This document shows positions 16,304 to 59,087 of a stretch of 64,000 nt of DNA, piece by piece. The position numbers and the translations under genes were made by a program. Positions within the stretch are counted from its first letter, which is position 1. Each line of letters begins with the position of its first letter. Origin of the DNA: Gallionella sp. (lineage in GTDB: Bacteria; Pseudomonadota; Gammaproteobacteria; Burkholderiales; Gallionellaceae); assembly GCA_028710565.1 (NCBI GenBank), contig JAQTTV010000013.1:1-64000 (forward strand), written 5' to 3'. Under the pieces are notes generated by a model, which was not told the DNA's origin, searched no databases, and saw only the letters and a list, made by a program, of their open reading frames with translations.

Positions 16304-16954
16304 ATGACAGCCAATATGCTTGACCAAACCATGAGTATAGAAATACCGCCCTTTAGACCGTCCGATCACCTATTGGGCATCGTGCAAGGAATTATAGCTT
16401 CGCGAGTCAATTCGCGAATAGTACTTGCTGGACAAGGCGAAATCATTGTATTGCCTAAAGCAGGAAGTTATTACACTAATGCGCAAAATATGGCTCGGTT
16501 TTGTCAAGCACCCGCAGCACAGTTTGAAACAACCCCTCTCGGCAACAGCTCCCTTTCCTACCCTATTGAATCAGCAAGAAATATAAAGGAATTATTGTGG
16601 CAAGCCGCATTTCATGTCTCTCAAGGACGCTTACCCGAAGGTTGTACCAAGTACGATGTGGTGCAATTCCGCCACTGGCCTAACCTCACGCGCTTACCCA
16701 TCACCCCCCATGCCGCACAAATTTGTGCGCTCTTGACCCGCACCCCCACGACCATCATGCTGGTTCGGCGCATTTTGGATATCCCAAGAGAGGAAGTTTT
16801 CCAAATTTACAGTGCCGCATACTGTGCAGGCATTACCACAAAAATCCAGAAAACCCCCGAACAATCGCAAGCTGAAGCTGACATTGCCAATACACCGCCC
16901 CCTGCCCCACATGGTTTGATGCGCTCTTTGTTTGCTAAAATTCTAGGACTGTAA
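16304..16954 (+). CDS. Uncharacterised protein, first gene of GTPase/roadblock cluster
   Basis: I do not recognise the family of this 216-residue soluble protein. The N-terminal half contains GIVQGIIASRVNSRIVLAGQGEIIVLP. The C-terminal half (about 140-180) reads like a winged-helix DNA- or partner-binding segment, with LLTRTPTTIMLVRRILDIP followed by VFQIYSAAYCAGI, and is followed by a Pro/Ala linker and a short amphipathic tail. It has GAGGG before its ATG and ends 3 bases before the GTPase start, so the two are very likely made together. By analogy with Streptomyces conservons, which pair a GTPase with roadblock and DUF742 proteins, it may be the DNA-binding or adaptor partner; this is inference only. 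Confidence 0.75.
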   Translation: MTANMLDQTMSIEIPPFRPSDHLLGIVQGIIASRVNSRIVLAGQGEIIVLPKAGSYYTNAQNMARFCQAPAAQFETTPLGNSSLSYPIESARNIKELLWQAAFHVSQGRLPEGCTKYDVVQFRHWPNLTRLPITPHAAQICALLTRTPTTIMLVRRILDIPREEVFQIYSAAYCAGITTKIQKTPEQSQAEADIANTPPPAPHGLMRSLFAKILGL

Positions 16955-16957
16955 CTC

Positions 16958-17512
16958 ATGGAAAATAAAATCATTTTTGCAGGTCCTGTCGGTTCAGGTA
17001 AAACAACCTCAATTAGCGCAGTCAGCGACATTATGGTGGTTGGCACAGAGGCAAAAGCCTCTGATGACGTTGCCAAACGCAAGCAAAATACGACTGTAGC
17101 GATGGATTACGGTGTACTTAATCTTGAAGGTGGAAAACGTGTGCATCTTTATGGCACGCCAGGTCAGGAACGCTTCAACTTTATGTGGGAAATTCTAAGT
17201 GAAAATGCGATTGGATTTATTATCCTCATTGATAGCATTCGACCCGACCCTATGGCTGACCTTGATTTTTATATCAAGGCCTTTCGCAAGTCGATTACCC
17301 AATGCAACGATGCTGTTGTGATCGGCGTGACCCGCACAGAAGTATGTCCTCATGTGGATTTACTGGATCGTATTAACGACCACCTCGCCACACTCAAACT
17401 CAATGTACCTGTTTTTGAAGTCGATGGACGAGAACGTAAAGATGTTAAACAAATGCTACTTGCCTTGCTCACCTTGATCGACCCTAAAACGATGCGACTC
17501 AAAGCCGCATAA
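16958..17512 (+). CDS. Small Ras-like GTPase (MglA/CvnD type)
   Basis: A 184-residue nucleotide-binding switch protein. The P-loop GPVGSGKT is at residues 9-16, a threonine pair (45-46) could serve switch I, and switch II is YGTPGQERF starting at residue 65, where the usual Asp of DxxG is Tyr. The base-specificity motif NKxD appears only as TRTE (125-128), so guanine specificity is uncertain. This combination resembles the bacterial MglA/CvnD-like GTPases that work with roadblock-domain partners, and two such proteins are encoded just downstream. It is tightly packed after the preceding gene. Confidence 0.88.
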   Translation: MENKIIFAGPVGSGKTTSISAVSDIMVVGTEAKASDDVAKRKQNTTVAMDYGVLNLEGGKRVHLYGTPGQERFNFMWEILSENAIGFIILIDSIRPDPMADLDFYIKAFRKSITQCNDAVVIGVTRTEVCPHVDLLDRINDHLATLKLNVPVFEVDGRERKDVKQMLLALLTLIDPKTMRLKAA

Positions 17513-17647
17513 AACAAATCCGTACGTGCTCAAAACTCAAACGCAACACCCTAGATCCAGTAATGACCACAAAAAGTATTTAGATATTTATAGCGCACTT
17601 AAGCAAATTTTTCAGCTAAGATTCCACTTTAGTTACGGGTACAGACG

Positions 17648-19036
17648 ATGAAATTTGCACAAACGCCAACACCACCACAAACGACTCACTTCACGCAAGA
17701 CCTGCCCTCCCACCACAAAATCACCCCGCCAGCGGCGGGTGTGTTACTTGAACTACGCCAATTTGGTGCGGCTTTTGGGCAAAAGGTGGTATTAGGCGCA
17801 CTCTCTCTCAAAATCCCAGAACTCGGCACGGTTATTTTACTTGGCCCCTCTGGCACAGGGAAATCAACATTATTACGCACGCTGGCAGGTCTTAGCTGTG
17901 CCAGCCCTTCTTTCCGCACTTGGGGGGAGGTTTTTTACAATGGCGAAGTGCTGAGTGACAAAGAACGCCCCGAATTGGTCGCACAAAGTGTTCAACTGAT
18001 GATGTCATCGGTACTTGACAACGTGGTGGTCAATTTATCAGAACGCAGCCAACTCACCCGTATCCAGCAGCGTGAACTGGCTTACCGTCTATTGAAACAC
18101 GCAGGATTGGATGAGCTGTGTTCTAGACTAGATGAACTGGTGGTCAATTTACCACTGGCGTTGCAGCGGCACCTTGCCATCCTACGTCAAGTGGTCTCTC
18201 GTCCACGCCTGCTCTGCATCGACGAACCCACCACTGGACTCAATGATGAAGAAAGCACTCGATTATTAACTTACATTCGAGAAGAAGCGACCCGCCGTGC
18301 TTTGCTTGTCACACTACACAATCAACGCCATGCGCGCTTTCTGGGGGGGATGGGCGTTTTACTGGCGGGGGGATATATTCAGGAACAGCAAGAGATTCCT
18401 GCCCTATTTGACTCCCCTATTTCTCACGCCGCACGAGAATTTGTCCGCACAGGTTCATGCGCCGTCGCCAGTCCTGGCACGCCAATAGAGGAGTTGGATG
18501 ACTCACTTCCCCCTCCTAAGCCTCTCCCCAAAGCGGCTATGCATCACGCCAGTAGCGCATCAGGTCCAAGGGGTTTCTTGTGGCTAAAGCGCAATCAACT
18601 GGCAGGCACACCCAAACCAGGGGTATTTTTTGAAAAGGAATATGACCTCAAAGCACTGCAACGCGTTGGCGTGACGACGCTGATTACACTACTGGAAGAC
18701 CACTTAGACGAAGAACGTCTCAAACCCTTTGGCCTCAGAAGTATTTGGGAACCCATTAAGGACATGCACGCACCTACCATTGAACAGGGTATTCGGATCT
18801 GCGAAACAATCGAACATCTGATAGCCGATCACGAAGTCATTGCAGTCCATTGTCTTGCTGGCATGGGGCGCACGGGGACAATTTTAGCTGCCTATTTAAT
18901 ATGGGAAGGACAGAGTGCCTTAGACGCGCTTGAAACAGCACGCAGCATTGAGCCCCGTTGGGTGCAGTCGCAAGTTCAAGTGGAATTTCTCACGGCATTT
19001 GAACAGGCTATTACAAAAAAATCATGCCAAAATTGA
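17648..19036 (+). CDS. ABC-type ATPase fused to a cysteine phosphatase
   Basis: A 462-residue fusion. The N-terminal ABC ATPase domain (about 30-270) has Walker A GPSGTGKS (66-73), Walker B LLCIDEPTTGL and an H-loop LVTLHNQ. The LSGGQ signature is replaced by a degenerate NLPLALQRH, so transport-type dimerisation may be altered. After a Pro-rich linker the C-terminal domain (about 310-455) is a dual-specificity/tyrosine phosphatase with HCLAGMGRTG (catalytic Cys402, Arg408) and a candidate general acid Asp in KDMHAPT. No membrane partner is encoded nearby. The fusion suggests phosphatase activity gated by ATP binding, possibly as part of the GTPase cluster. A 135-base gap separates it from the GTPase gene. 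Confidence 0.85.
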   Translation: MKFAQTPTPPQTTHFTQDLPSHHKITPPAAGVLLELRQFGAAFGQKVVLGALSLKIPELGTVILLGPSGTGKSTLLRTLAGLSCASPSFRTWGEVFYNGEVLSDKERPELVAQSVQLMMSSVLDNVVVNLSERSQLTRIQQRELAYRLLKHAGLDELCSRLDELVVNLPLALQRHLAILRQVVSRPRLLCIDEPTTGLNDEESTRLLTYIREEATRRALLVTLHNQRHARFLGGMGVLLAGGYIQEQQEIPALFDSPISHAAREFVRTGSCAVASPGTPIEELDDSLPPPKPLPKAAMHHASSASGPRGFLWLKRNQLAGTPKPGVFFEKEYDLKALQRVGVTTLITLLEDHLDEERLKPFGLRSIWEPIKDMHAPTIEQGIRICETIEHLIADHEVIAVHCLAGMGRTGTILAAYLIWEGQSALDALETARSIEPRWVQSQVQVEFLTAFEQAITKKSCQN

Positions 19037-19122
19037 GATGGGCACAGCTATAATGGGGCAGTAGTCACCGTCTAGCCCTTGTGGTAAGACGCTTTTTCAA
19101 CCTAACATAAATAGGGAGTTTT

Positions 19123-19527
19123 ATGTCTTCTTTAGATCAAGCATTACAAACAGCCGCGTCAGCCGTTCCAGAATGTTTGGCGGCGGGTTATATCGACTTG
19201 GCATCAGGCATGTTATTAGGGATCAAATCAGTTGATTCGCAACCCAGCGAAGTCATTGATTTACTGGCCGCTGCTACATCCGATCTGTTCCAAGGTCCTA
19301 ACGTGCGCATGATTGAAAGCATTTTCAAAAAAGCTCGCGGTTTGACTGACGATGGTCATCATTATTTCCAAGAAATTATTATCAACAGTGACAACTTACT
19401 GCACGTTTTTCTGCGCGGAAAAAATGAAGAGCAAGTCGCTTGCTTCGTTTGCCGTCGCTCTGTGAACTTGGGCATGGCCTTAACAAAGGCACGCTCTTCA
19501 ATGCCTGCTATCGAGGCTGCTCTGTAA
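19123..19527 (+). CDS. Roadblock-like protein (divergent)
   Basis: A 134-residue soluble protein with a predicted alpha-beta layout like roadblock/LC7 domains: an N-terminal helix, a GYIDLASGMLLGI strand pair, a long helix with DLLAAATSDLF, then strands with FQEIIINSDNLLHVFLR. The match is weaker than for the second roadblock gene downstream. Roadblock proteins bind small GTPases as activators or scaffolds, which fits the neighbouring GTPase. AGGGAG lies seven bases before the ATG. A terminator-like hairpin follows at 19576. Confidence 0.65.
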   Translation: MSSLDQALQTAASAVPECLAAGYIDLASGMLLGIKSVDSQPSEVIDLLAAATSDLFQGPNVRMIESIFKKARGLTDDGHHYFQEIIINSDNLLHVFLRGKNEEQVACFVCRRSVNLGMALTKARSSMPAIEAAL

Positions 19528-19575
19528 CACAAACACTAGGCAAGAGCATATAGCTCACAATTGGTTGAAACATGG

Positions 19576-19614
19576 TCAGGCACAAGATTTTCGCGTGCCT
19601 GATTCTTTGTGTTT
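19576..19614 (+). terminator. Candidate terminator between the roadblock genes
   Basis: TCAGGCAC (19576-19583) and GTGCCTGA (19595-19602) form an 8-bp stem with an 11-base loop followed by a T-rich tail. It could end or attenuate transcription before the second half of the cluster. Confidence 0.6.
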
Positions 19615-19629
19615 AAGCAAGGCCGCATC

Positions 19630-19677
19630 GTCAAAAGTACGGCGTACTTGGCACCGCATTAATGCCGTACTTTTGAC
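19630..19677. promoter_or_regulatory. 14-bp perfect inverted repeat, two-state hairpin
   Basis: GTCAAAAGTACGGC at 19630-19643 is the exact reverse complement of 19664-19677, with 20 bases between. The left arm also overlaps a smaller palindrome (AAGTAC-GGC-GTACTT), so two mutually exclusive hairpins are possible. It lies 56 bases before the second roadblock gene. It could be an operator or an RNA switch; no protein or ligand can be named. Confidence 0.5.
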
Positions 19678-19732
19678 CATGCTTGGCATAACAGGTTTTG
19701 TTTACATTTTTCTGAATTAGGTGACTCGCAAC

Positions 19733-20149
19733 ATGAGACAAGAACCCAAATCCGCGACCGAAGTCCGCGCTTCTGCCCTCAGATCCGTACTCCGTGAACT
19801 CAATAGTGCTTCTGGTGACATTGAAGCATCTGCCTGTATTTCTAGCGATGGCTACACCCTTGCAGCCGTACTGGGTTCTGGCGTGGACGCAGATCGCTTT
19901 GGCGCGATGTGCGCCTCACTGCTGGCATTAGCCAGTCGCGCAGCACAAGAAATTCAACGCGGCGAACTCAAATTGGTGATGGTTGAAGGTGAGCTTGGTG
20001 TGATGTTATTGGTTCATGCAGGACCTGATGCGATTTTGGCCGTTGCCGCTAAACCAGGCAAGAACTTGGGTATGATTTTCTTGGACTCCAAAAAGACCGC
20101 CGTTAAGCTGTTGCAAACATTGGATCGTCATGAGCCATTAGTCGGTTAA
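19733..20149 (+). CDS. Roadblock/LC7 domain protein
   Basis: A 138-residue protein with a convincing roadblock/LC7 domain: an N-terminal helix (SALRSVLRELNS), then GDIEASACISSDGYTLAAVL, a central helix and the LKLVMVEGELGVMLLVHAGPDAILAVAA strand region. The ATG at 19733 has TTAGGTGA upstream at good spacing; an in-frame GTG 12 bases earlier is less likely. Members of this family bind Ras-like GTPases (MglB with MglA, CvnB with CvnD). It lies 21 bases upstream of the reductase-globin gene, so the two are probably cotranscribed. Confidence 0.88.
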   Translation: MRQEPKSATEVRASALRSVLRELNSASGDIEASACISSDGYTLAAVLGSGVDADRFGAMCASLLALASRAAQEIQRGELKLVMVEGELGVMLLVHAGPDAILAVAAKPGKNLGMIFLDSKKTAVKLLQTLDRHEPLVG

Positions 20150-20170
20150 CACTCATCCAGAGAGCGACAG

Positions 20171-21736
20171 ATGCCTTATTTAAAGTATCAGGGTAAGGAA
20201 GTCTTTGCCCGTAAAGACGAGAATGTCCTTGATGCTATGTTGCGTAGCGGCGTGGATATCCCATTTTCGTGCCGCAGCGGCGTATGTCATATTTGCGTAC
20301 AACGCTGTACCCAAGGCGAGATCCCCCCCTTGGCACAAAATGGGCTGCGTCCTGAATTGCGTGAACAAGGCTATTTTATGACTTGCAAATGCGTTCCGCT
20401 GACGGATATGGAAATCGTTCCACCCAGCGATCTTTTTACGACCACGTTGGTACACAGTAAAGAGCTGCTAACACCCAAAATCTGTAAATTACTCATTGAG
20501 CCGCCCCAAGATTTCACCTATCGTGCTGGGCAATACATTAACGTGCGCAATCCCAAAGGCGTGGTGCGCAGTTATTCGTTAGCCAGCCTACCTGCCACAG
20601 ATTACTTTCTCGAACTCCACATTCAGCTCACAGCAAATGGCGAAATGAGTCCGTGGATATTTGATACCCTGAGTTCAGGGGATGAAATTGAAATTCAACG
20701 CGCCGAGGGCGAATGCTGTTATCAAACCAAAATACAGACTCAACCCATGCTGCTCATTGGCACGGGAACGGGTCTATCTCCGCTACTTGGCGTGATACGA
20801 GATGCTTTGCATCAACAACATCAAGGCGAAATCCATCTTTATCATGGTAGCCGCACCTTAGATCATTTGTATTTACACAACGATCTACGCCAACTTGAGC
20901 AGCAACACCCCAATTTCCATTATCACCCCTGCCTATCAGGCAGCGAATCCCCTCCCGAAGGCATGAATGCGGGAAGAGCCGATGTCATTGCCTTTGCCGA
21001 ACTTCAAAACTTGCATGATTGGCAAGTCTATTTGACGGGACTCACCGAAATGGTTGAGAAAGGTCGGTTGATCGCACTAGAGCATGGCGCGGCATTGTCA
21101 TCCATACACACGGACGCGTTTTCTATTACCACAGCAACGCCATCCGACAAGCCCGTACAGCCCTCCACGCGCGACTATCCCCCACCTGACCCAGTGCTTT
21201 GGAAGGCACTTGGCGAAGGGGAATTGCTGATGGCTGTGCTGCGTGATTTTTATGGCCGTGTGTTTCAGGACCCGCGTTTATCATCCTTTTTTGAGGGGGT
21301 CACCAAGCAACGCTCCATTGAGAAGCAATATCTCTTTACGCGCCAAATTCTAACGGGTGAAAAGATTTATTTTGGGGAACGCCCCCGTAATTCACATCAC
21401 TGGATGGTCATCTCAGATGAACTGTTTGATTATCGAGCAGAAATCATGGTGAGCTGTTTACGTGAGCACGGATTAGCTGAAGATATGGTGCACCGATTCC
21501 GCGAAGTAGAGGAATTCTTTAGAGCCGCGATTGTTAAATCCAGCCCTTTTGCGCGAGTGATGGGGGATGTAGAAGTTCCATTTGAGGGTTTTGGTGAAAT
21601 TACATTGGATGTTGGCACCCTATGCGACGTGTGCGAACGTGAAGTTTCTATTGGCGAAAAGGTGATCTACCATCTGCGCTTAGGCAAAATTTACTGCTCT
21701 GATTGCAGCTCACAGCACCACCACGAAGTCTCCTAG
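20171..21736 (+). CDS. Ferredoxin-flavin reductase-truncated globin-zinc ribbon fusion
   Basis: A 521-residue multidomain redox protein. Residues 1-85 form a [2Fe-2S] ferredoxin with Cys34, Cys39, Cys42 and Cys72. About 95-320 is an FAD/NAD(P)H reductase with RSYSLASLP for flavin and GTGTGLSPL for the nicotinamide. About 345-470 is a truncated hemoglobin (FYGRVFQDPRLSSFF; candidate proximal His409 in RNSHHWMVIS). The C-terminus has two Cys-x2-Cys pairs (CDVC, CSDC), a zinc-ribbon-like module, then a His-rich tail. The domain order suggests NAD(P)H electrons passing via FAD to the cluster and heme, for example in NO or oxygen chemistry or sensing. No function is proven. Its TAG stop lies within the target-site duplication of the adjacent short mobile element. 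Confidence 0.88.
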   Translation: MPYLKYQGKEVFARKDENVLDAMLRSGVDIPFSCRSGVCHICVQRCTQGEIPPLAQNGLRPELREQGYFMTCKCVPLTDMEIVPPSDLFTTTLVHSKELLTPKICKLLIEPPQDFTYRAGQYINVRNPKGVVRSYSLASLPATDYFLELHIQLTANGEMSPWIFDTLSSGDEIEIQRAEGECCYQTKIQTQPMLLIGTGTGLSPLLGVIRDALHQQHQGEIHLYHGSRTLDHLYLHNDLRQLEQQHPNFHYHPCLSGSESPPEGMNAGRADVIAFAELQNLHDWQVYLTGLTEMVEKGRLIALEHGAALSSIHTDAFSITTATPSDKPVQPSTRDYPPPDPVLWKALGEGELLMAVLRDFYGRVFQDPRLSSFFEGVTKQRSIEKQYLFTRQILTGEKIYFGERPRNSHHWMVISDELFDYRAEIMVSCLREHGLAEDMVHRFREVEEFFRAAIVKSSPFARVMGDVEVPFEGFGEITLDVGTLCDVCEREVSIGEKVIYHLRLGKIYCSDCSSQHHHEVS

Positions 21737-24946: not shown

Positions 24947-25360
24947 CTAAATACTCGCCTCATCCTGCCAATTTTCGATAAGCAAATCTGGCACACGATT
25001 GAATTCCGTCACATTTCGCGTCACCAAACACAATCCAGATGTGCGTGCAATTGCTGCAATTTGCAAATCATAAGGACCGATAGGTCGTCCTTCGCGTGCC
25101 AATAACGCCCGAATATCACCACAATGTTCACCTGCACGATTATCAAACGGTAAGCTCGGTACAAAGGCAACCAATTCCCGAATGCGTGCTTGATTTTCCG
25201 CAATGCGCTGACTTTTGCACGCCCCAAACCATAACTCAGACCAAACAGGCGCACACAAATACAACGCATCTAATCCAACGCGCTGCACTCGCGCTTTGAC
25301 CTTTGCGTCATTTTTTAATAGCGCGATCCAAACATTGGTATCCAGCAAATAGCCTTTCAT
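24947..25360 (-). CDS. vapC: VapC-type PIN-domain toxin
   Basis: A 137-residue PIN-domain ribonuclease toxin. LLDTNVWIALL at the N-terminus supplies the first catalytic Asp. Further acidic residues lie in VWSELWFG, GPYDLQIAA and the TRNVTEFNRVPDL segment, matching the four-acid metal site of VapC proteins. The ATG overlaps the stop of the upstream antitoxin by 4 bases, the usual coupling for such pairs. Confidence 0.92.
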   Translation of the reverse strand: MKGYLLDTNVWIALLKNDAKVKARVQRVGLDALYLCAPVWSELWFGACKSQRIAENQARIRELVAFVPSLPFDNRAGEHCGDIRALLAREGRPIGPYDLQIAAIARTSGLCLVTRNVTEFNRVPDLLIENWQDEASI

Positions 25361-25596
25361 TCCAAAGACTCCCGCACACTGTCATTTACCAAATCGGCAT
25401 CGCCAATTTCATCTGGAAAATCATCGCTTAAGCAACCTGCGAAGCGCGCCAGAAAGGCTTCGGTGGTCGTTAGCGGCAGTTGTTTGGGTATGACACGATA
25501 ACGCTGCTCAAGATAGGCGATAAAATCTAGCGTTTCACGTTGTAAATCAATGGGTAATGCCTGTGCGTGGGCATAAATGGTGTCAGATAGATTCAT
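25357..25596 (-). CDS. vapB: VapB-type antitoxin (DUF2281-like)
   Basis: A 79-residue partner of VapC. The ATG at 25596 has an excellent AGGAGG site six bases upstream and was preferred to an earlier in-frame start. The N-terminal DTIYAHAQALPIDLQRETLDFI segment resembles DUF2281 antitoxins, and the acidic C-terminus (DDFPDEIGDADLVNDS) would wrap the toxin. The pair lies directly next to an attC-like site and may have arrived as a cassette, although no attC follows vapC. Confidence 0.85.
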   Translation of the reverse strand: MNLSDTIYAHAQALPIDLQRETLDFIAYLEQRYRVIPKQLPLTTTEAFLARFAGCLSDDFPDEIGDADLVNDSVRESLE

Positions 25597-25635
25597 ATTG
25601 CCTCCTTGCTTTAATGAAATTTGTCTTGGCGGTTT

Positions 25636-25751
25636 GCCTAACGGCGAATCCACCTTACGAGTTACAAATGAATCTCATACGGCGCAATAACGATTGCGCC
25701 CTACGCGGGCTGCGCGCTTTTGCGCAGTCCCTCTCGACTGACAGGTTAGAC
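25636..25751 (-). other. attC-like recombination site B (116 bp)
   Basis: Read on the minus strand the site begins GTCTAAC and ends GTTAGGC, the RYYYAAC and GTTRRRY cores of integron attC sites. The inner left part CTGTCAGTCGAGAGGGAC closely resembles that of site A, and GC-rich imperfect hairpins fill the middle. The stop codon TAA of the upstream cassette gene lies inside the GTCTAAC core, as is common for gene cassettes. Confidence 0.8.
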
Positions 25752-26549: not shown

Positions 26550-27401
26550 TTAAGAGAACAACCTCTTCCAGTACGGTTCAAGCCGAGTTCCTTCCACGCC
26601 TTTGCTTACGTTGTCCAACCCACGAACCATTACATAGAGGCCACCTAGTATCTGCATCCCTTCGACCACGCTGAGAGCGGCGTAACTGAAGTTAGGGAAG
26701 AAGACATAGTAGGTCATCATGACTCCAACAATAAATTCAAACACACCATACGAGAGACGAAATTTTTGTCTGTACCAAAACAAGAAGATTCCAAGCAATG
26801 GCAGTGCGACCACAGTTCCCCAAATGGAGATTGTAGCAACAAGGTACGAAAACTTGGAGTAACCGATATTAGCTATAAGCGAGCCGAGTGCACCTAGTGC
26901 GAGGCTGAGGGCTAGGTGCCGCCCCTGTGATTTTACAAACGTCGTAGCCGAGGTTTGAAGTTCTTTGTCAGGTGTATCAGCGGCAGTCTCGCCTAAAAAT
27001 TCAGAACCGGAAATTGATCTAATTCCACAGGATGATAAAAACATGGCAAGTGCACGATCAGAGGTGACAACGCAGACAGCAGAAGGGGAGAGACGCTCTG
27101 AATAATCAATTGCAATTCTTGCTATATCAATGTCTGCACCACTTAATCTTTGAGCATTCCGATCTGACGCCAACAACTCATTTTTAATGGTGCTCGGGCT
27201 GCGAACGATCTTAGCGCCACGAGCTGAAGCTTGATTTATTAGGTTTGCGATGCCACTACGGGCGCCATCGCGTCCACGAACGGACATTTCATGAGACACG
27301 GCTTCAGGGATGACGAGTTTTCTACTCCCGGCTCTCGACAGAATTTCGGGGTGCTGTAGTAACGCACTTGTATCTAAAATGTATCTTTGCGGCTCGGTCA
27401 T
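26550..27401 (-). CDS. PIN-like domain protein with membrane C-terminus
   Basis: A 283-residue protein with an N-terminal PIN-like nuclease domain (about 5-140): YILDTSALLQHP gives the first Asp, SGADIDIARIAI and VVTSDRALAMFL the later acidic residues. The C-terminal half (about 165-270) has four hydrophobic segments (LALSLALGALGSLIANIGY, YLVATISIWGTVVALPLL and two more), so the enzyme would be tethered to the membrane. No antitoxin partner is evident. It is the first cassette-like gene after a partial attC, and a membrane-anchored RNase role is possible but unproven. Confidence 0.75.
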   Translation of the reverse strand: MTEPQRYILDTSALLQHPEILSRAGSRKLVIPEAVSHEMSVRGRDGARSGIANLINQASARGAKIVRSPSTIKNELLASDRNAQRLSGADIDIARIAIDYSERLSPSAVCVVTSDRALAMFLSSCGIRSISGSEFLGETAADTPDKELQTSATTFVKSQGRHLALSLALGALGSLIANIGYSKFSYLVATISIWGTVVALPLLGIFLFWYRQKFRLSYGVFEFIVGVMMTYYVFFPNFSYAALSVVEGMQILGGLYVMVRGLDNVSKGVEGTRLEPYWKRLFS

Positions 27402-44323: not shown

Positions 44324-44791
44324 TTAGCCGCCGCAGCCGCCTTGCGTCACTTTGACTTCTTTCGCGGCACGATACAATTTTCCATCGGCTTTCACCAGCA
44401 CAATCACCGTGGCGGTTTGTCCCATTTTAACGCGCGTGGTCACAAAGGTTTCTGTGCCAGCGGGCAGATTAAAGTTCGCCGCCAGCACATTAGGATTCTT
44501 ATCCACAAACACCATAATTTGCGTGGCATTGGGCAAGGTGCTGCTCACACTGATCGGCACCACTGCGCCATTTTCAGCAATTTCAGGCACATTGAGCTGA
44601 ATATCCCCACTATTTTCGGGCAACACTGCACCAATCAAATCCAAGGCTTCATTCATGCTTTTGGCAGAAAATAAAGTCTTATTCCATTCGGCGTGCGCGA
44701 AAGAGGGCATCAGTCCCAGCGAGGCGAACACGCCCCACAGTCCTAATGCCCCTCCTGTTTTCAATACCTGACGGCGTTCCAAATTAACCAT
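44324..44791 (-). CDS. soxY: Sulfur carrier SoxY
   Basis: A 155-residue periplasmic carrier whose C-terminal Cys holds pathway intermediates. The chain ends VTQGGCGG, the expected swinging arm. The N-terminus has a twin-arginine signal (LERRQVLKTGGALGLWG). GGAGGAG lies just before the ATG. It is the first sox gene after the usp gene in the transcription direction. Confidence 0.97.
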   Translation of the reverse strand: MVNLERRQVLKTGGALGLWGVFASLGLMPSFAHAEWNKTLFSAKSMNEALDLIGAVLPENSGDIQLNVPEIAENGAVVPISVSSTLPNATQIMVFVDKNPNVLAANFNLPAGTETFVTTRVKMGQTATVIVLVKADGKLYRAAKEVKVTQGGCGG

Positions 44792-44818
44792 TGCTCCTCC
44801 GTATGTTGATGATGTTAA

Positions 44819-45640
44819 TCAATTTGTTACAACCAGCGTAGACACTTCCATCTTGCCCGCAATTTCTTGCATAATGCTGCGATGGCCAAATGGAATTAGG
44901 TGATAACGTTGACGACCAATGACGACCAAATCCGCTCCACTTTCTTTGACCGCTGCGACAGTTTGTTCAACCGCATGACCGACACGAACGCTGCCACGAG
45001 CTTTATTCGATGCGCTTGATGCCAAAGATACATTTAAGGTGTTAAAGCTTTGTATTTTTGACAGCGAGGCTTGATCTGGCGCAACACTCAAAAGTGTCAA
45101 TGGAAGATCACAGATACCTGCAATTAAGCCCGCTGTTTTGGCAATATGGGGAGCGGCAGGCGTATCGCCTACGGCTGCCAGTACATGGTTAGACCAAAAC
45201 TCTGCTTTGCGTGGTACCAGCAATACACTACAAGTCGTGTCGCGTATCACGCGACTGACCATTTCACCCACCATCATGCGCGCAAAAAAGCTTGGCTTGC
45301 CGCGACGGCGTATCACGATCAAATCCGCGTTAAATTCCCGTGCATCATCCACAATTTCAGTATGAATTTCAGACCCCCGTCTGACTTTTACGTCTAATGA
45401 CACCCCCGCTATCACGGCGGCTTGACGTAAATTATCAATCTTCACCGCCACGTCTTGTTCCGCACGCAAGGCGTGTTCAGGCATTTCGGCTTCGTATTCA
45501 GGGTTGCTGAGTAAGGGAAACACCACGCGTAGCGGCACGCCACAGCGTTGTGCCATGGCAAAAGCCAGTCGTTCGGCTCCTGTGTCAAATTCGGTGTGTT
45601 CGGTTGCCAATAAAATTCGGCTAAATGGGTAGTCGCTCAT
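44819..45640 (-). CDS. Tandem universal stress protein
   Basis: A 273-residue cytoplasmic protein with two UspA-like domains. The first (1-145) begins with FSRILLATEHTEFDTGAERLAFAMAQ and ends SRVIRDTTCSVLLVPRKAE; the second (150-273) ends with GADLVVIGRQRYHLIPFG and VSTLVV. An ATP-binding GxxG pattern is only partly kept. It lies between the TauE-associated gene and soxY, suggesting a stress role tied to sulfur oxidation. Confidence 0.88.
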   Translation of the reverse strand: MSDYPFSRILLATEHTEFDTGAERLAFAMAQRCGVPLRVVFPLLSNPEYEAEMPEHALRAEQDVAVKIDNLRQAAVIAGVSLDVKVRRGSEIHTEIVDDAREFNADLIVIRRRGKPSFFARMMVGEMVSRVIRDTTCSVLLVPRKAEFWSNHVLAAVGDTPAAPHIAKTAGLIAGICDLPLTLLSVAPDQASLSKIQSFNTLNVSLASSASNKARGSVRVGHAVEQTVAAVKESGADLVVIGRQRYHLIPFGHRSIMQEIAGKMEVSTLVVTN

Positions 45641-45652
45641 TATCTCTGTCCT

Positions 45653-46069
45653 TTAATGTCCGACCGTGAGGATGCCAGATGCCGCCAATAATTGCACGAA
45701 CAATGCCACTACGCACAAGCCGACGAACACCCAATCTTTGCGCTTGGCATAGATAGGCATGACCGCAAGCAGGCACAACAGCGAGCAGCCAGACAACCAT
45801 GCAATGCCCAGCAAACTGGCGAAATCGCCTTGTCCTAGGAGACTTAACCAATGCCAACCTGTGGGTGCGCCTGTTTTTTGCAAATAGTCATGCGTGGAAA
45901 GACTCCAGACGGTGGGCATTTGCTCCAGCGGAATACGAGCGGGCAAGCCACTCAACACATAGCCCAAAAAGGTGACGATCAGTACCGCTAAGCCAGAACG
46001 CGAACCCCAACTGAGCCACGTGGCATAACGTTGCTGTTCGGTGGAAATAAAACTTGTTTTGTCATTCAT
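45653..46069 (-). CDS. Four-helix membrane protein coupled to TauE
   Basis: A 138-residue membrane protein with about three or four hydrophobic segments (SGLAVLIVTFLGYVLSG, ASLLGIAWLSGCSLLCLLAVM, VFVGLCVVALFVQLLAASG). It is not a family I can name. Its ATG overlaps the tauE stop as ATGA, so it probably works with the exporter or with the Usp protein encoded 12 bases downstream. Confidence 0.72.
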   Translation of the reverse strand: MNDKTSFISTEQQRYATWLSWGSRSGLAVLIVTFLGYVLSGLPARIPLEQMPTVWSLSTHDYLQKTGAPTGWHWLSLLGQGDFASLLGIAWLSGCSLLCLLAVMPIYAKRKDWVFVGLCVVALFVQLLAASGILTVGH

Positions 46070-47046
46070 ACCCAGATCCCCAATCCTTTCAATAAGGCGC
46101 GCAGCCCTGCAAACAACAGCAAGGAGATGACCATCTTGCGCACCACCGAGGCTTTGAGTACATGCAGCAATTTTGCCCCGATGGTCGCCCCTAGCATCAT
46201 GCCAATCACAGACGGCACGGCAATAATCGCCAATACCGCGCCTTTATTCAGGTAAATCCACGCGGCCGAAGAATCGACCAAGGTTAGGATAAAACTGGAG
46301 GTTCCCGCAGACACCTTCAGCGGCGCGCCCATCAGCAAATTCAACACAGGCACATTCGCCCAACCCGCGCCCATGCCAAATAGCCCTGCCAAGAATCCGA
46401 TGCCCACAAACAACAGCAGCCCTAATGGCGTGCGATGCACATGCCAATTGATTTTTTCATTGCGCGCCGCATCGTGATAAATACCATTCATTGCCAAGGC
46501 ACTGGAAAGCTTATCGGGTGTACCCACTTCAGGAAATTCAGATTTTTTCGCCAATGCCATCAAGGTCACAATGCCGAGTATGGTCAAACCGAGCGCAATT
46601 TGCACAATCGCGGCAGGAATTGCCAAGCCTATCATCGCCCCTGCAATGGAGCTGGCGGATGCCAATACCGCCATGGGCAATGCCAGTCGCAAATCCGCCA
46701 AGCCGCCGCGCAACAAGGAAGGGCCTGCGGCTAATGCGCTCGCCAAAGCCACCAGCAACCCTGCACCGCGCACGAAATCCAGATGAAACGGGAAAAATCC
46801 GCCCACAATTGGCACAAACAACACCCCGCCGCCCACACCCGACGGCACGGCAACAATCCCTAAAAAGAAACAGGTGACAAACAAGGCGATCACCCATCCC
46901 CACCACGGCATGGTGCTTGCCGTAGGCAGATTTTCAGCCGCAAATGCGCCCACGGTAAACAAAGACAGCGTCAGCAACAGCAGCATGACGTTGGCTTTTA
47001 GCAAGGCTCCCGTGTGTTGCAGTTTAGAGAATACGTGCGCCAACAT
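46066..47046 (-). CDS. TauE/SafE-family anion exporter
   Basis: A 326-residue membrane protein with eight or nine hydrophobic helices and the repeated TauE motifs (VPSGVGGGVLFVPIVGGF, GIGFLAGLFGMGAGWANVPVLNLLMG). TauE/SafE proteins export sulfite or sulfoacetate. Its place directly after soeC (stop and start overlap as TAATG) suggests removal of excess sulfite. The first helix may be a signal-like anchor. Confidence 0.92.
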   Translation of the reverse strand: MLAHVFSKLQHTGALLKANVMLLLLTLSLFTVGAFAAENLPTASTMPWWGWVIALFVTCFFLGIVAVPSGVGGGVLFVPIVGGFFPFHLDFVRGAGLLVALASALAAGPSLLRGGLADLRLALPMAVLASASSIAGAMIGLAIPAAIVQIALGLTILGIVTLMALAKKSEFPEVGTPDKLSSALAMNGIYHDAARNEKINWHVHRTPLGLLLFVGIGFLAGLFGMGAGWANVPVLNLLMGAPLKVSAGTSSFILTLVDSSAAWIYLNKGAVLAIIAVPSVIGMMLGATIGAKLLHVLKASVVRKMVISLLLFAGLRALLKGLGIWV

Positions 47047-47948
47047 TATGAATTCCCTTGGTAATAGAGATTTTGCGGATGTTTCGCTTCAGCAAAGAAA
47101 TACCAACGTTCCGCCAATAACCCCGCATATTGCAAGATAAACGCCAACAACGGCAGGGTTAACACCAGCAACAAGGGCAAGGCAAACGACAGCACTAAAA
47201 ATGCAGGTATGATCACGCGCACAAATCCCACACTTTTGCCATGGAAAAATTCACGGGTGTTATACGACCCACCCATCGCACCTTGGGCTTTTTGTACGAT
47301 ATGGGGGTGACGAATCCCAATGGCGGTTTGCAGCGTACTGGCAGGACTCAACTGAGCGTTGCGCACCAAAGCCGCGCCGCGTGTTAGCAAGCTTAACGCG
47401 GTGAGGACAAAAGCGGCTTGCGCGAGCGGGGCGGTGAGGGTAGGGGCAACAAAGCTGGCATAAGCCGCCGCCAGTGTCATGCCCGATGCCGAACCTAGCA
47501 GGCTAAAGTTCACCAGTGTCAAGGGATGCGCCCATTCTTTGAGTACTTTGACCGCCGCGTAAATCATGCCCGTGCAGATAAACAAGGTAATGGACAACAC
47601 CACGCCGACGACCCCGATGAGCAAGGTATGTCCCAACGCCATCCAATGCGCGACACCGTAAGCAAACGCGGCTGCCATAAAGGCGGGCAAGGCGATGACT
47701 TCACGCGATAACCAAGAAGTACGCCACATCATCATCGAACGCCAAGCACGTTCGGGATGACCCAAGTGAAAAAAGGAAGCCAGTAAGCCTAAGCCACTGA
47801 GCAACAACACGATGACACTGCCGCCAATAAGAAAGTTTGGCGTGATAGCGTTTGGGGCAAGCAATTCACACAAAAACAGTGCGATAAACAAACCTTGCGC
47901 GGCACCAATCAGCGTGGTCAACAGTAATACAGAAAAAGCGGGACGCAT
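47046..47948 (-). CDS. soeC: Sulfite dehydrogenase membrane subunit SoeC
   Basis: A 300-residue DmsC-type membrane anchor with eight hydrophobic helices, which would pass electrons from the iron-sulfur subunit to quinone. LASFFHLGHPERAWRSMMMWRTSWLSREV is the characteristic DmsC signature. It follows soeB by 11 bases. The assignment to sulfite rather than another substrate rests on the sulfur gene context. Confidence 0.88.
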   Translation of the reverse strand: MRPAFSVLLLTTLIGAAQGLFIALFLCELLAPNAITPNFLIGGSVIVLLLSGLGLLASFFHLGHPERAWRSMMMWRTSWLSREVIALPAFMAAAFAYGVAHWMALGHTLLIGVVGVVLSITLFICTGMIYAAVKVLKEWAHPLTLVNFSLLGSASGMTLAAAYASFVAPTLTAPLAQAAFVLTALSLLTRGAALVRNAQLSPASTLQTAIGIRHPHIVQKAQGAMGGSYNTREFFHGKSVGFVRVIIPAFLVLSFALPLLLVLTLPLLAFILQYAGLLAERWYFFAEAKHPQNLYYQGNS

Positions 47949-47959
47949 TGAGTAATTCC

Positions 47960-48682
47960 TTAGTTAAGCTCTTCGTTAGTCGGTGGCAGATTCCTGTCAA
48001 ATGGCGCACCGTCAATTTTGTGCGGATTATCCGAGCGATACAGTTCCTCATCACGTACCGTTACCGTCGTCTTGCGACGTGGCAAATAATGATTCGCGGG
48101 CTTGGTATTGGCTTCGGGCATCAAGGTGTACCCCCCGCGTTCGCGTATCGCCACCGAGACTTCGGATTCGGGATCATGTACGTCACCAAACAAGCGCGCA
48201 CCTGGCGGACATGCCAATACGCACGACGGTTTACGGCGATCTTCAGGCAAACTCATGTCATAGATGCGATCCACGCACAGCGTACATTTGGTCATCACTT
48301 TGCGTTGTTCGTCGAACTCGCGCACGCCGTATGGACACGCCCAAGAACAATACTTACAACCGATGCACTTGTCATAATCGACCAGCACAATGCCATCCGA
48401 TTTACGTTTGTACGATGCGCCTGTTGGACACACGGGGACACACGCGGGATCTTCGCAATGCAAACACGATTTTGGGAAGTGCACGGTTTCGGTTTTGGGA
48501 TACTGACCGACTTCAAAAGTCTGCACCCGATTGAAAAACGTGCCGTTAGGTTCGGCTTCGTAAGGATTGCAGTCGGTCAACGCACCCGCCGCCCCCGAAG
48601 TATTCCACTGCTTACAGTTGGTCACGCAAGCATGACAACCGACACAGACATTTAAATCAATTACGAGTGCTAGTTGGGTCAT
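47960..48682 (-). CDS. soeB: Sulfite dehydrogenase iron-sulfur subunit SoeB
   Basis: A 240-residue ferredoxin-like subunit with four cluster motifs: CVGCHACVTNCKQ, CLHCEDPACVPVCP, CIGCKYCSWACP and CTLCVDR...CVLACPP. The ATG at 48682 overlaps the soeA stop as ATGA and was preferred over an in-frame start 12 codons earlier. It links the molybdenum subunit to SoeC. Confidence 0.92.
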   Translation of the reverse strand: MTQLALVIDLNVCVGCHACVTNCKQWNTSGAAGALTDCNPYEAEPNGTFFNRVQTFEVGQYPKTETVHFPKSCLHCEDPACVPVCPTGASYKRKSDGIVLVDYDKCIGCKYCSWACPYGVREFDEQRKVMTKCTLCVDRIYDMSLPEDRRKPSCVLACPPGARLFGDVHDPESEVSVAIRERGGYTLMPEANTKPANHYLPRRKTTVTVRDEELYRSDNPHKIDGAPFDRNLPPTNEELN

Positions 48683-51594
48683 CGCGCACCGCCTTTCTTT
48701 TTGCTGCCAGCAAACCATGCTTGCCAGCCCATATTTCTGGATGCCATCCCTGGTACAGGATTGAGCGTTTCAAATTGAGGTGAACTCTCCTCTGCTTCAC
48801 CCGCTGTTGCTGGATAGATACGCACCCGCACGTCATACCACGCCGCTTGTCCTGTAATCGGGTCGGAGTTGGAGAAACGCTTGCCATCGGCATTGGCACC
48901 CAGCTCTTCGGAAATCAAATGATTCAGCAAGAAACCTTGCTTGGACTCATTGGCATCGCCTTTCAGATTCCATGCCCCAGAGGATTTGCCAATGGCATTC
49001 CATGTCCACACCGTGCCAGGCTCTACCGCTTCGGAATAACGGCACAGACAACGCACCTTACCCCATTGTGATTCCACCCACATCCAACCACCATCGGCAA
49101 TGCCTGCATCTGCCGCAGTTTGCGTATTCACGTACAAATGGTTATAGGTATGAATCTGACGCAACCATGCATTTTGCGAATCCCACGAGTGGTACATCGC
49201 CATGGGGCGTTGCGTTAAGGCATTCAGGGGATAGTGTTGCAAATCACTTTCTAAATCTTCCAATGGCGCGTACCAGAAGGGCAGGGGGTCGAAATACGTC
49301 GCCACGCGTTCGCGCAACTCATCGGGCGGCTGTTTACCTGCGCGTTTACCCTCCGCTGCCAAGCGGAAACCCTGCAAAATTTCAGAATAAATGTGAATAA
49401 TCACGGGGTCATTGTCGCGGCGCATCCCTGCTTGTTGCGCCCATTCCATGTATTCTTTATTCCAGTTGCGCATGTATTGACTGGACGGCGGCAGATGGTA
49501 TTGGAAGAAGCAGCCATTCTTTTCGTACATTTCCCATTGTTTAGGATTCGGTTCGCCGCGCATGGCTTTATCACCGTCTTTACCGCGCCAGCCCGTTAAG
49601 AAACCAATGCCAGAACCTGGGGCGGTTTCATAATTGACCACAAAATCAGGGTAATTTTTGAACTTACGCCCGCCTTCTGCGTTGGTAAACGCAGGCAACT
49701 TGAGACGACCACCCAACTCGACCAGCACTTCTTGGAAGGGTTTGCAGTCCCCCTTGGGTGCGACCACGGGGATACGCACCGCATCCACAGGGCCATCGAA
49801 TTCCGAAATAGGACGATCGAGCATGGACATGCAATCGTGCCGTTCGAGGTAAGTGGTGTCGGGCAGAATCAAATCGGCAAAGGCAGTGGTTTCAGATTGA
49901 AACGCGTCGCATACCACGATAAACGGGATTTTGTAGCCGCCATCTGGATTTTTGTCTACCAGCATTTTGCGCACTTCCGAGGTGTTCATGCTGGAATTCC
50001 ACGCCATATTCGCCATAAACAACAACAATGTGTCGATGGGGTAAGGATCGCCGCGCCACGCATTGGTGATGGCATTGTGCATCAAGCCATGCGCTGACAA
50101 CGGGTGTTCCCAAGAGAACGCTTTATCCAAGCGCACAGGTTTGCCCTCGGCATCCACGAATAAATCATCTGGGCTTTCTGGCCAACCAAGCGGCGCGCCA
50201 TTCAACGGCGTGTTCGGTTGTACCGCTTCAGGGCCTTTGGGCGGGCGGGCATTGGGCGGAATGGCGCGGGGGTAAGGCGCTTTGTGACGGAAGCCGCCAG
50301 GTCTATCTATCGTGCCCAACAAGGACATCAAAATCGCCAACGAGCGTATGGTTTGAAAACCATTGGAATGCGCTGCCAAGCCACGCATGGCATGGAATGC
50401 CACTGGATTGCCTGTGACAGTTTCATGCTCCTCACCCCACCAATCCGTCCAAGGAATCGGCAGCTCAATTTTTTGGTCGCGCGCGGTAATCCCCATCTCA
50501 TGCGCAATGCGCTTAATGGTTGCCGCATCAATGCCCGTGATACTGGCCGCCCAGTCAGGCGTGCAATCCGCCAACCGTTCTTTCAGCAACTGAAAAGCAG
50601 GCTTAACAGGTGTGCCGTCAGGCATGATAAAACTGCCAAACAAGGCAGGATCCGCGTGTTTTGCGTGGTCATCCACCGCTTGATTGGTATGCCTATCCCA
50701 CCAATAAAAATTATGGGGGCGCAGCGGGTTGATTTTATCGCCTTCAGGATTGCGCATCATCATGCCGAATTCTTTGCTGGATTCGTCCTGATTCACCAGT
50801 TGCCCAGAGTTGGTATAGCGCGCCAAGAAGTCACGGTCATACAAACCCAGCGCGATAATTTCGCGAATAATCGCCAAAATCAGTGCGCCATCGGTGCCTG
50901 GTTTGATGGGGATCCATTCATCTGCAATAGCGGCATAGCCACTGCGCACGGGGTTAATCGCGACGAAGCGTCCACCATTACGTTTGAAATCCCCAATCGC
51001 GCTCTTCAGCGGATTGGAGTGATGATCTTCTGCGGTGCCGATCATGTAGAACACTTTGGCGCGTTCCAGATCGGGACCACCGAATTCCCAGAACGAGCCG
51101 CCGATGGTGTAAATCATGCCCGCCGCCATATTCACCGAGCAGAAGCCGCCGTGCGCCGCATAGTTGGGTGTGCCGAATTGACGGGCAAACATACCCGTCA
51201 ACGCCTGCATCTGATCGCGCCCCGTAAACAGCGCAAATTTTTTGGGATCCGTGGCGCGCAAATGCGACAGCCGCTTTTCCAAAATATCAAACGTTTCGTC
51301 CCAGCTAATCTCTTCAAACTGGTTTTCACCGCGTTCCGTCCCCGCTTTGCGACGCAAAGGCTTAGTCAGGCGCGCGGGCGAGTATTGCTTCATAATCCCC
51401 GAACCGCCCTTAGCGCAGATCACACCCTTGTTCAACGGATGGTCGGGATTGCCTTCGATATAGCGAACCTCGCCATCGCGCAAATGTACTTTAATGCCGC
51501 AACGGCAAGCACACATGTAGCATGTCGTCGTTTTGGTCTCAGTTGCCGCATCGGGCAACGGAGAAGAGATGGGATCGTGTATGGGTGAGGACAT
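48679..51594 (-). CDS. soeA: Sulfite dehydrogenase molybdopterin subunit SoeA
   Basis: A 971-residue DMSO-reductase-family molybdoenzyme. The N-terminal [4Fe-4S] motif is CYMCACRCGIKVHL near residue 25, followed by the pterin-binding core and a C-terminal dinucleotide-binding domain. No Tat signal is seen, consistent with the cytoplasmic SoeABC enzyme that oxidises sulfite to sulfate with quinone as acceptor. The ATG at 51594 lacks a Shine-Dalgarno sequence and lies six bases after a TATAAA-like box, so a very short or absent leader is possible. Polysulfide or thiosulfate reductase is the main alternative; context favours sulfite. Confidence 0.88.
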   Translation of the reverse strand: MSSPIHDPISSPLPDAATETKTTTCYMCACRCGIKVHLRDGEVRYIEGNPDHPLNKGVICAKGGSGIMKQYSPARLTKPLRRKAGTERGENQFEEISWDETFDILEKRLSHLRATDPKKFALFTGRDQMQALTGMFARQFGTPNYAAHGGFCSVNMAAGMIYTIGGSFWEFGGPDLERAKVFYMIGTAEDHHSNPLKSAIGDFKRNGGRFVAINPVRSGYAAIADEWIPIKPGTDGALILAIIREIIALGLYDRDFLARYTNSGQLVNQDESSKEFGMMMRNPEGDKINPLRPHNFYWWDRHTNQAVDDHAKHADPALFGSFIMPDGTPVKPAFQLLKERLADCTPDWAASITGIDAATIKRIAHEMGITARDQKIELPIPWTDWWGEEHETVTGNPVAFHAMRGLAAHSNGFQTIRSLAILMSLLGTIDRPGGFRHKAPYPRAIPPNARPPKGPEAVQPNTPLNGAPLGWPESPDDLFVDAEGKPVRLDKAFSWEHPLSAHGLMHNAITNAWRGDPYPIDTLLLFMANMAWNSSMNTSEVRKMLVDKNPDGGYKIPFIVVCDAFQSETTAFADLILPDTTYLERHDCMSMLDRPISEFDGPVDAVRIPVVAPKGDCKPFQEVLVELGGRLKLPAFTNAEGGRKFKNYPDFVVNYETAPGSGIGFLTGWRGKDGDKAMRGEPNPKQWEMYEKNGCFFQYHLPPSSQYMRNWNKEYMEWAQQAGMRRDNDPVIIHIYSEILQGFRLAAEGKRAGKQPPDELRERVATYFDPLPFWYAPLEDLESDLQHYPLNALTQRPMAMYHSWDSQNAWLRQIHTYNHLYVNTQTAADAGIADGGWMWVESQWGKVRCLCRYSEAVEPGTVWTWNAIGKSSGAWNLKGDANESKQGFLLNHLISEELGANADGKRFSNSDPITGQAAWYDVRVRIYPATAGEAEESSPQFETLNPVPGMASRNMGWQAWFAGSKKKGGAR

Positions 51595-51697
51595 GGCAGT
51601 CAGTTTTATAGGGTTGGGGTTGCAACAACAGGAAAACGGCATTCGCGTAAGTATTTTGACTCTATTTTTATTAGGCACAATCAGACCCCACAGTGTC

Positions 51698-57555: not shown

Positions 57556-58071
57556 ATGGTCACGATTGCATTATTGAATGCACAACACCAACGGGCAGGC
57601 TTTGATTGCGGCGATACCGCGCTGAATGATTTTTTGCACAAACACGCAGGGCAACAGCAACGGCGCGATTTTGGCAAAACCTACCTAGCACTAGATGATG
57701 ATGGCAACACGGTGTTGGGCTTTATCACCATCAGCGCGGGGCAAATAGCCACTGCCGCCCTGCCCGCCGAACTGAAATTGCCACGTTATCCCGTCCCCAT
57801 TTTGCGCATCGGTAGATTAGCCGTCGATGTCCGCTCCCAAGGCAAAGGCATTGCCCAAGATTTATTGGCATTTGCTTTGCGCATTGCACTGGATTTTTCC
57901 CAACAAGTGGGACTGTATGCCGTGGTGGTGGATGCCAAACACAAACGCGCACGGGATTTTTATGTGCGGCTTGGATTTATCCCCTGCGTCGATCAACCGC
58001 TGTGTTTGTATTTACCGATGGGGACGTTGAGGCAGGCGGGAGGCGAAAAACGCGAATTGCCTTACTGCTAA
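57556..58071 (+). CDS. GNAT acetyltransferase toxin (TacT-type)
   Basis: A 171-residue GNAT-fold protein paired with the DUF1778 antitoxin. FDCGDTALNDFLHKHAGQQQRR is the typical start. LGFITISAGQIA, RIGRLAVDVRSQGKGIAQDLL (acetyl-CoA loop) and ARDFYVRLGFIP follow. TacT-like toxins acetylate aminoacyl-tRNA and stop translation. The pair borders the Hachiman genes. Confidence 0.92.
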   Translation: MVTIALLNAQHQRAGFDCGDTALNDFLHKHAGQQQRRDFGKTYLALDDDGNTVLGFITISAGQIATAALPAELKLPRYPVPILRIGRLAVDVRSQGKGIAQDLLAFALRIALDFSQQVGLYAVVVDAKHKRARDFYVRLGFIPCVDQPLCLYLPMGTLRQAGGEKRELPYC

Positions 58072-58147
58072 TATACCTTGCTGATTTTGAAGGATTTAAT
58101 TGCAGATGACTTAAATACTTTGCTCATATTGGGCATGAAAGGTTGGT

Positions 58148-59086: not shown

Positions 59087-59087
59087 C

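Follow-up and report, generated by a model that had tools for sequence, protein, structure and literature searches.

Group 3 MglA systems have been described from beta- and gamma-proteobacteria as sets of a receiver-like/winged-helix protein, the small GTPase MglA and one or two MglB proteins (Wuichet & Sogaard-Andersen 2014, PMC4316618); the papers named here by PMC number are represented by parts of their text, and what is said of them holds for those parts. For the first of these proteins, a receiver-like N-terminal region and a winged-helix C-terminal region are predicted across the family (PMC4316618). In Snodgrassella, the mgl genes are assigned to Group 3, and an orphan mglB is tied to colonisation, with a suggested link to pilus-dependent motility (PMC11112851). 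We have analysed a six-gene locus, g1 to g6, at positions 16304 to 21736 of a 64,000-nucleotide stretch of Gallionella sp. DNA (the window; assembly GCA_028710565.1, contig JAQTTV010000013.1, positions 1 to 64,000 of the forward strand), in which a Group 3 partner protein, its GTPase and two roadblock proteins are encoded together with an ABC ATPase-phosphatase fusion and a reductase-globin fusion. We consider it firm that the six genes form a conserved unit of the Group 3 family, that g3 is paired with g4, and that the globin co-occurs with them.

An earlier note, made from the letters of the DNA, had placed six same-strand genes here with tight spacing at 16954/16958 and 20149/20171. The six open reading frames (ORFs) were recovered on the plus strand at exactly these coordinates, with intergenic gaps of 3 bp (g1-g2), 135 bp (g2-g3), 86 bp (g3-g4), 193 bp (g4-g5) and 21 bp (g5-g6), so that the only tight junctions are g1/g2 and g5/g6. 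The genes and their domains are as follows.

16304..16954, plus strand: g1, 216-aa partner protein of the Group 3 type (alignment of relatives, AlphaFold2 (AF2) model)
16958..17512, plus strand: g2, MglA-type small GTPase with Group 3 features (Pfam, motifs, tree)
17648..19036, plus strand: g3, fusion of a soluble ABC ATPase with a Cys phosphatase of the DSP type (Pfam, 13-sequence alignment)
17747..18445, plus strand: ABC ATPase domain of g3, residues about 34-266, with Walker A, Q-loop, Walker B and H-loop and no LSGGQ
18566..19003, plus strand: Cys phosphatase domain of g3, residues about 307-452, with the HCxxGxxR loop (C402, R408) and the likely general acid D372
19123..19527, plus strand: g4, divergent protein of predicted roadblock fold, constant neighbour of g3 (AF2 and Foldseek)
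19721..20149, plus strand: g5, MglB-like roadblock protein (Pfam Robl_LC7, 1e-13)
20171..21736, plus strand: g6, ferredoxin-FAD/NAD reductase-truncated globin with a four-Cys tail
20192..21058, plus strand: reductase arm of g6, [2Fe-2S], FAD and NAD domains, residues 8-296 (Pfam)
21197..21526, plus strand: globin of g6, group I-like truncated globin, residues 343-452
21623..21706, plus strand: tail of g6, CxxC...CxxC, zinc-ribbon-like by pattern only (C485, C488, C509, C512)

The protein types that the earlier note had named stood for the GTPase, the ABC ATPase-phosphatase, the reductase-globin, g5 (by Pfam) and g4 (by fold), while the winged helix of g1 was borne out only weakly. Promoter-like matches numbered 6 against 7.8 in shuffled sequences and terminator-like matches 10 against 6.4, and we draw no argument about transcript boundaries from them.

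On the one hand, the locus resembles the Group 3 MglA systems in its partner protein g1, in a GTPase with a deviating G4 motif and a G5 Arg, and in its roadblock genes g4 and g5, and both the host and the spread of the GTPase in its class fit the beta- and gamma-proteobacterial range. On the other hand, the window g1 lacks the receiver-like N-terminal region, and the window adds g3 between the GTPase and the roadblock genes as well as the globin-reductase g6; the words phosphatase and globin are absent from the main text of PMC4316618. Accordingly, the view of the earlier note that no described system has this gene set is only half right, because g1, g2, g4 and g5 fit the published Group 3 system, which is nearer than the comparators then chosen, MglA/MglB (Group 1) and the conservons (Group 2). 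The other half stood, in that g3 and g6 lie beyond that system; among the open PMC papers searched, we found no description of g3 or of the six-gene set, which may well be undescribed.

Other known arrangements share fewer features with the locus. The Group 3 mgl genes of Neisseria and Snodgrassella (PMC11112851) also comprise a g1-like gene, a GTPase gene and two roadblock genes in a row. In the Neisseria locus, where a g1 homologue matched at E 1e-7, the second roadblock gene is of the longer type, and the 18.5-kb stretch compared gave no match to g3 or g6. In HGbRL of Methylacidiphilum, a proposed sensor, a globin is likewise tied to a roadblock domain, although HGbRL is a single fused protein without a reductase (PMC4476040), whereas the window has separate genes, a truncated globin with a reductase, and an adjacent GTPase. 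The actinobacterial conservons share with the window a GTPase and a roadblock protein in one operon, but a histidine kinase heads the conservon (PMC4316618) and none is found among the six genes. Identity with a conservon was rejected, as no kinase domain was found in the six proteins; no CvnC-specific model was run.

The gene order is conserved well beyond this contig. Within the genus, the GTPase is present in 3 of 37 genomes, the host included, and in each of them the six genes follow one another in the order of the window. Of the other two, G023 also shares the flanks of the window (sdh genes, patatin), while G025 has different flanks, a doubled g4 and a frame break in g3, indicating that the cassette holds together when its site changes. 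A search with g3 gave 5 matches in 399 genomes of the order; scanning named genomes by pattern yielded 6 loci, namely L021, L022 and four ABC ATPases that share 27-29% identity across the ATPase domain. With g4, 23 matches at E <= 1e-6 were obtained in 369 genomes of the class, and a close g4 was present in 8 genomes (E <= 4.2e-45; next match 1.9e-12) belonging to 8 different families. Altogether 14 loci with g3 and g4 were found via g2, g3 or g4 (the window, L009, L010, L022, L027-L030 and L069-L074); only for the 8 genomes that the g4 search produced did g3 play no part in the choice. In all 14 loci, as in all 8 of these genomes, g3 lies directly 5' of g4; g1 and g2 lie directly 5' of g3 in 10 of the 14, a GTPase at 36% identity lies nearby in L074, and g5 is present in 9. 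The complete order from g1 to g6 was found in the window, G023, G025, G265 and G740, and a near-complete one in G627, without g5, and G554, whose globin is without the reductase. The earlier note had proposed a neighbourhood search to see whether the genes are conserved together, and they are: the order recurs in other families at about 50% identity for g2 and g3. As a separate observation, the genes directly downstream of g3 and g4 in L029 and L030, where no GTPase is near, read in translation as those of an OmpR-type regulator and a histidine kinase.

Co-occurrence points in the same direction. The g6 globin had 28 matches at E <= 1e-8 in the same 369 genomes, and the close form was present in 5 (E <= 7.9e-44; next 5.1e-16), all of them among the 8 close-g4 genomes (hypergeometric P 1.0e-9, or 4.7e-8 without the host genome, neither corrected for kinship among the genomes). 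A g2 relative was matched in 63 of the 369 genomes overall and in 7 of the 8 with a close g4 (P 2.2e-5; 1.1e-4 without the host genome; likewise uncorrected). In G795, the globin lies on a different contig from g3 and g4. The tie between a globin and a GTPase-roadblock switch, as it had been claimed, is thus upheld on two counts: the gene order is conserved, and the globin accompanies the cluster even in genomes where it is encoded elsewhere. Many of the compared genomes are drafts, hence the absences reported here are soft.

The GTPase carries the marks of Group 3. g2 matches ATP_bind_1 in Pfam (4.4e-13) and Roc/Ras weakly, with TRTE as its G4 and DGR as its G5 motif; all 42 relatives have the Arg in G5, and just 10 have the usual Lys in G4. 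In a tree of these 42 GTPases, those adjacent to g3 clustered without forming one clade (4 changes vs a shuffled mean of 9.1, with 0 of 500 as low), and the bootstrap did not settle the branching. Among 29 further GTPase loci (L076-L104, one per best-matching genome of the GTPase search, 1.5 kb each side), 22 had a longer second roadblock-like gene, 3 had g3 and 4 had neither. g1 had no match in Pfam or NCBIfam, and its AF2 model (predicted local distance difference test, pLDDT, 81.1) had no significant match in a fold search of the PDB (best E 0.062). When aligned with 9 relatives of up to 384 aa, the window g1 is without the N-terminal region of the longer ones; a C-terminal winged-helix-like region is predicted, as is an amphipathic-looking C-terminal tail.

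g3 combines ABC_tran (3.3e-15) with a DSP phosphatase domain (Tc-R-P 3.4e-21). In the alignment of 13 g3 sequences, from which the frame-broken copy of G025 was left out, all keep Walker A, the Q-loop, Walker B, the H-loop, HCxxGxxR and D372, and all lack the LSGGQ signature. Because the catalytic motifs are kept and LSGGQ is absent, g3 probably binds ATP and has an active phosphatase, rather than being part of a transporter. An ABC transporter component was rejected on the same absence, and no membrane permease is found among the six genes.

For g4, Pfam and NCBIfam gave no match. Its AF2 model, built from 15 relatives (pLDDT 84.8; predicted template modelling score, pTM, 0.80), matched roadblock structures including MglB at Foldseek E values of 3e-7 to 2e-6, and by this predicted fold g4 is a roadblock protein. 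The PDB relatives of g5 include CvnB5; its start codon is GTG, with an in-frame ATG 12 bp further on. As to spread beyond the class, a phylum-wide draw gave 5 of 398, all from the host's class, the share of the 398 from outside the class not being stated. The 193-bp gap between g4 and g5 holds a perfect 11-bp inverted repeat, noted by eye (19633-19643 / 19664-19674, plus strand), a possible regulatory site. A relative of g4 at 37-41% identity occurs on Ruegeria plasmids in 5 records; in the two records examined (L139:6998-7399 and L140:5998-6399), it lies among genes annotated as dynamin family, near a protein kinase, and no g3 is annotated beside it.

The Pfam matches of g6 are Fer2, FAD_binding_6, NAD_binding_1 and Bac_globin (2.1e-09), and among solved structures its globin comes nearest to the group I truncated haemoglobins (best E 6.6e-7). 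All 8 g6 sequences aligned keep the four tail cysteines as well as Y361, E384 and H409, which we take to be B10, the residue aligned with E11, and the proximal His; g6 would bind haem, judging from these kept ligand residues. The globin of G795 has, by eye, Asp in place of the Glu at E384. The electron-transfer arm is complete in 6 of 7 in-cluster copies. In G554, a globin ORF of 212 aa without the reductase lies between g4 and g5, and in G094 an unlinked ferredoxin-globin has a decayed reductase. Because globin and tail are retained in both cases, this pattern suggests that they are the essential part of g6.

Flavohaemoglobins carry an N-terminal globin followed by an FAD/NAD reductase on one chain. 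g6 also joins a globin and an FAD/NAD reductase on one chain, but it places the reductase first and has a [2Fe-2S] domain, a truncated globin and the four-Cys tail. A plain flavohaemoglobin was rejected for g6, since the order Fer2-FAD-NAD-globin is wrong and the globin is of the group I truncated type.

Protoglobin genes, too, were found in Group 3 loci, in each case between a longer roadblock gene and a g5-type gene. One is at L137:7350-7937 (minus strand; PF11563, E 1.3e-20), in a second Group 3 locus of G627 that was fetched for its GTPase and is outside the 29 loci above; the other, at L078:240-803 (minus strand) in the Group 3 locus of G515, is 48% identical to it. As a further observation, a CxxCxxCC gene (PF03692, E 1.3e-5 to 2.8e-7; 123-148 aa) lies directly 5' of g6 in three loci and is preceded in L027 and L071 by a small ORF with a hydrophobic stretch.

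L027:11679-12050, plus strand: CxxCxxCC gene (PF03692)
L069:9263-9664, minus strand: CxxCxxCC gene (PF03692)
L071:8921-9367, minus strand: CxxCxxCC gene (PF03692)

Among 8 other holders searched, a relative of this gene was found in G554 only, unlinked, and none in Gallionella. A split reductase in G554 was rejected, as its CxxCxxCC gene lies away from the cluster and a 3.4-kb locus surrounding that gene gave no reductase match.

We give about even weight to the reading that the cluster is a Group 3 MglA small-GTPase system in variant form, equipped with a globin as its input. In its favour we count the conserved order, the pairing of g3 with g4, the co-occurrence of the globin with them, the globins of G554 and G094 that persist without an intact reductase, the protoglobins between roadblock genes, the published precedent of HGbRL, and the kept catalytic residues of g3 and haem-ligand residues of g6. 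The wider proposal, which we hold just short of even, is an undescribed kind of GTPase signalling: a haem globin, with a reductase, bare, or as a protoglobin, would plug into a roadblock pair, a Ras-like switch would read O2, NO or redox, and an ABC-ATPase-gated Cys phosphatase would be its partner. We infer the globin as input, the GAP/GEF action of the roadblock proteins, the role of g1 and the target of the phosphatase, and the redox or gas input and phosphatase output proposed in the earlier note stand on the same footing. In the proposed mechanism, the haem globin of g6 would be the input, and the NAD(P)H-FAD-[2Fe-2S] arm would keep the haem reduced for O2 or NO binding, or the haem redox state would report cell redox. 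Globin and four-Cys tail would act on g4 and g5, which may work as MglB-like dimers with GTPase-activating protein/guanine nucleotide exchange factor (GAP/GEF) activity and so decide whether g2 carries GTP or GDP. In its GTP form, g2 would act on g1, which may control transcription or scaffold an assembly. In g3, held by g4, ATP-dependent closing of the nucleotide-binding domains, outside transport, would gate the dephosphorylation of a partner protein.

Several observations weigh against the globin as a general input. Just 7 of the 14 loci have the g6 globin in the cluster, and G797, G129, G168, G790 and G595, which hold g3/g4, gave no close globin match; therefore the core can do without it. 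Screening of 29 Group 3 loci showed a protoglobin within reach in just one, no match to the GTPase was obtained in G129, and the co-occurrence P values take no account of kinship. The main rival, possible though distinctly less probable, takes the globin-reductase as output: the GTPase-roadblock-phosphatase system would govern the synthesis or activity of an enzyme, either a self-sufficient NO dioxygenase or one that handles O2 or peroxide. The full arm of most in-cluster copies agrees with this, as do the nearest solved relatives, since some group I truncated globins, HbN among them, can act as NO dioxygenases. However, G554 has lost the arm and in G094 it has decayed, yet both retain globin and tail, and protoglobins, which are often sensors, occupy the same slot elsewhere.

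In an improbable second alternative, g3 and g4 would be an independent ABC-phosphatase/roadblock device that serves various switches: here the Group 3 GTPase, in G129 and G168 a histidine kinase with a response regulator. The globin would then belong to this device rather than to the GTPase. This would explain why L029, L030 and L073, which also count against a fixed GTPase system, have g3 and g4 without an adjacent GTPase, with regulator and kinase genes adjoining in L029 and L030, and why the unlinked globin of G795 is in a genome with g3 and g4; yet g1 and g2 directly precede g3 in most of the loci, and the GTPase is enriched in the close-g4 genomes. A chance neighbourhood or an assembly artefact of unrelated genes would suit the scarcity of the GTPase in the genus and the fact that three of the five gaps measure 86-193 bp. 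We regard it as hardly credible, as it is contradicted by the order conserved in other families and by the co-occurrence (P ~1e-9 without kinship correction), and since the host genome is rated at 99.99% completeness and 0.08% contamination and G023 has the same cluster and flanks.

Elsewhere in the window, a low-GC stretch (0.384 at 58001-60000) holds an anti-phage defence system of the Hachiman type, with HamA and HamB (58148-61226, plus strand; PADLOC E 3.7e-152 and 6.1e-231). Sulfur oxidation genes, in a Gallionella, are at 44324-51678 (minus strand): SoxY (PF13501) and, at 47046-51678, a presumably sulfite-dehydrogenase-like set of a molybdopterin oxidoreductase, a 4Fe-4S protein and an anchor resembling DmsC. 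A PIN-domain gene with a small upstream gene, in a toxin-antitoxin-like layout, and a second PIN-domain protein are at 24947-25653 and 26550-27401 (both minus strand).

In summary, Group 3-like GTPases are common in the class, and no known input for them was found in the literature, as far as the partial texts reach. The in-cluster haem globin, seen in two globin families, offers a testable input for these GTPases. The ABC-ATPase-phosphatase fusion would represent ATP gating of a Cys phosphatase outside transport. Gallionella lives at low-O2 iron fronts, where a GTPase switch that reads O2 or redox would make ecological sense.

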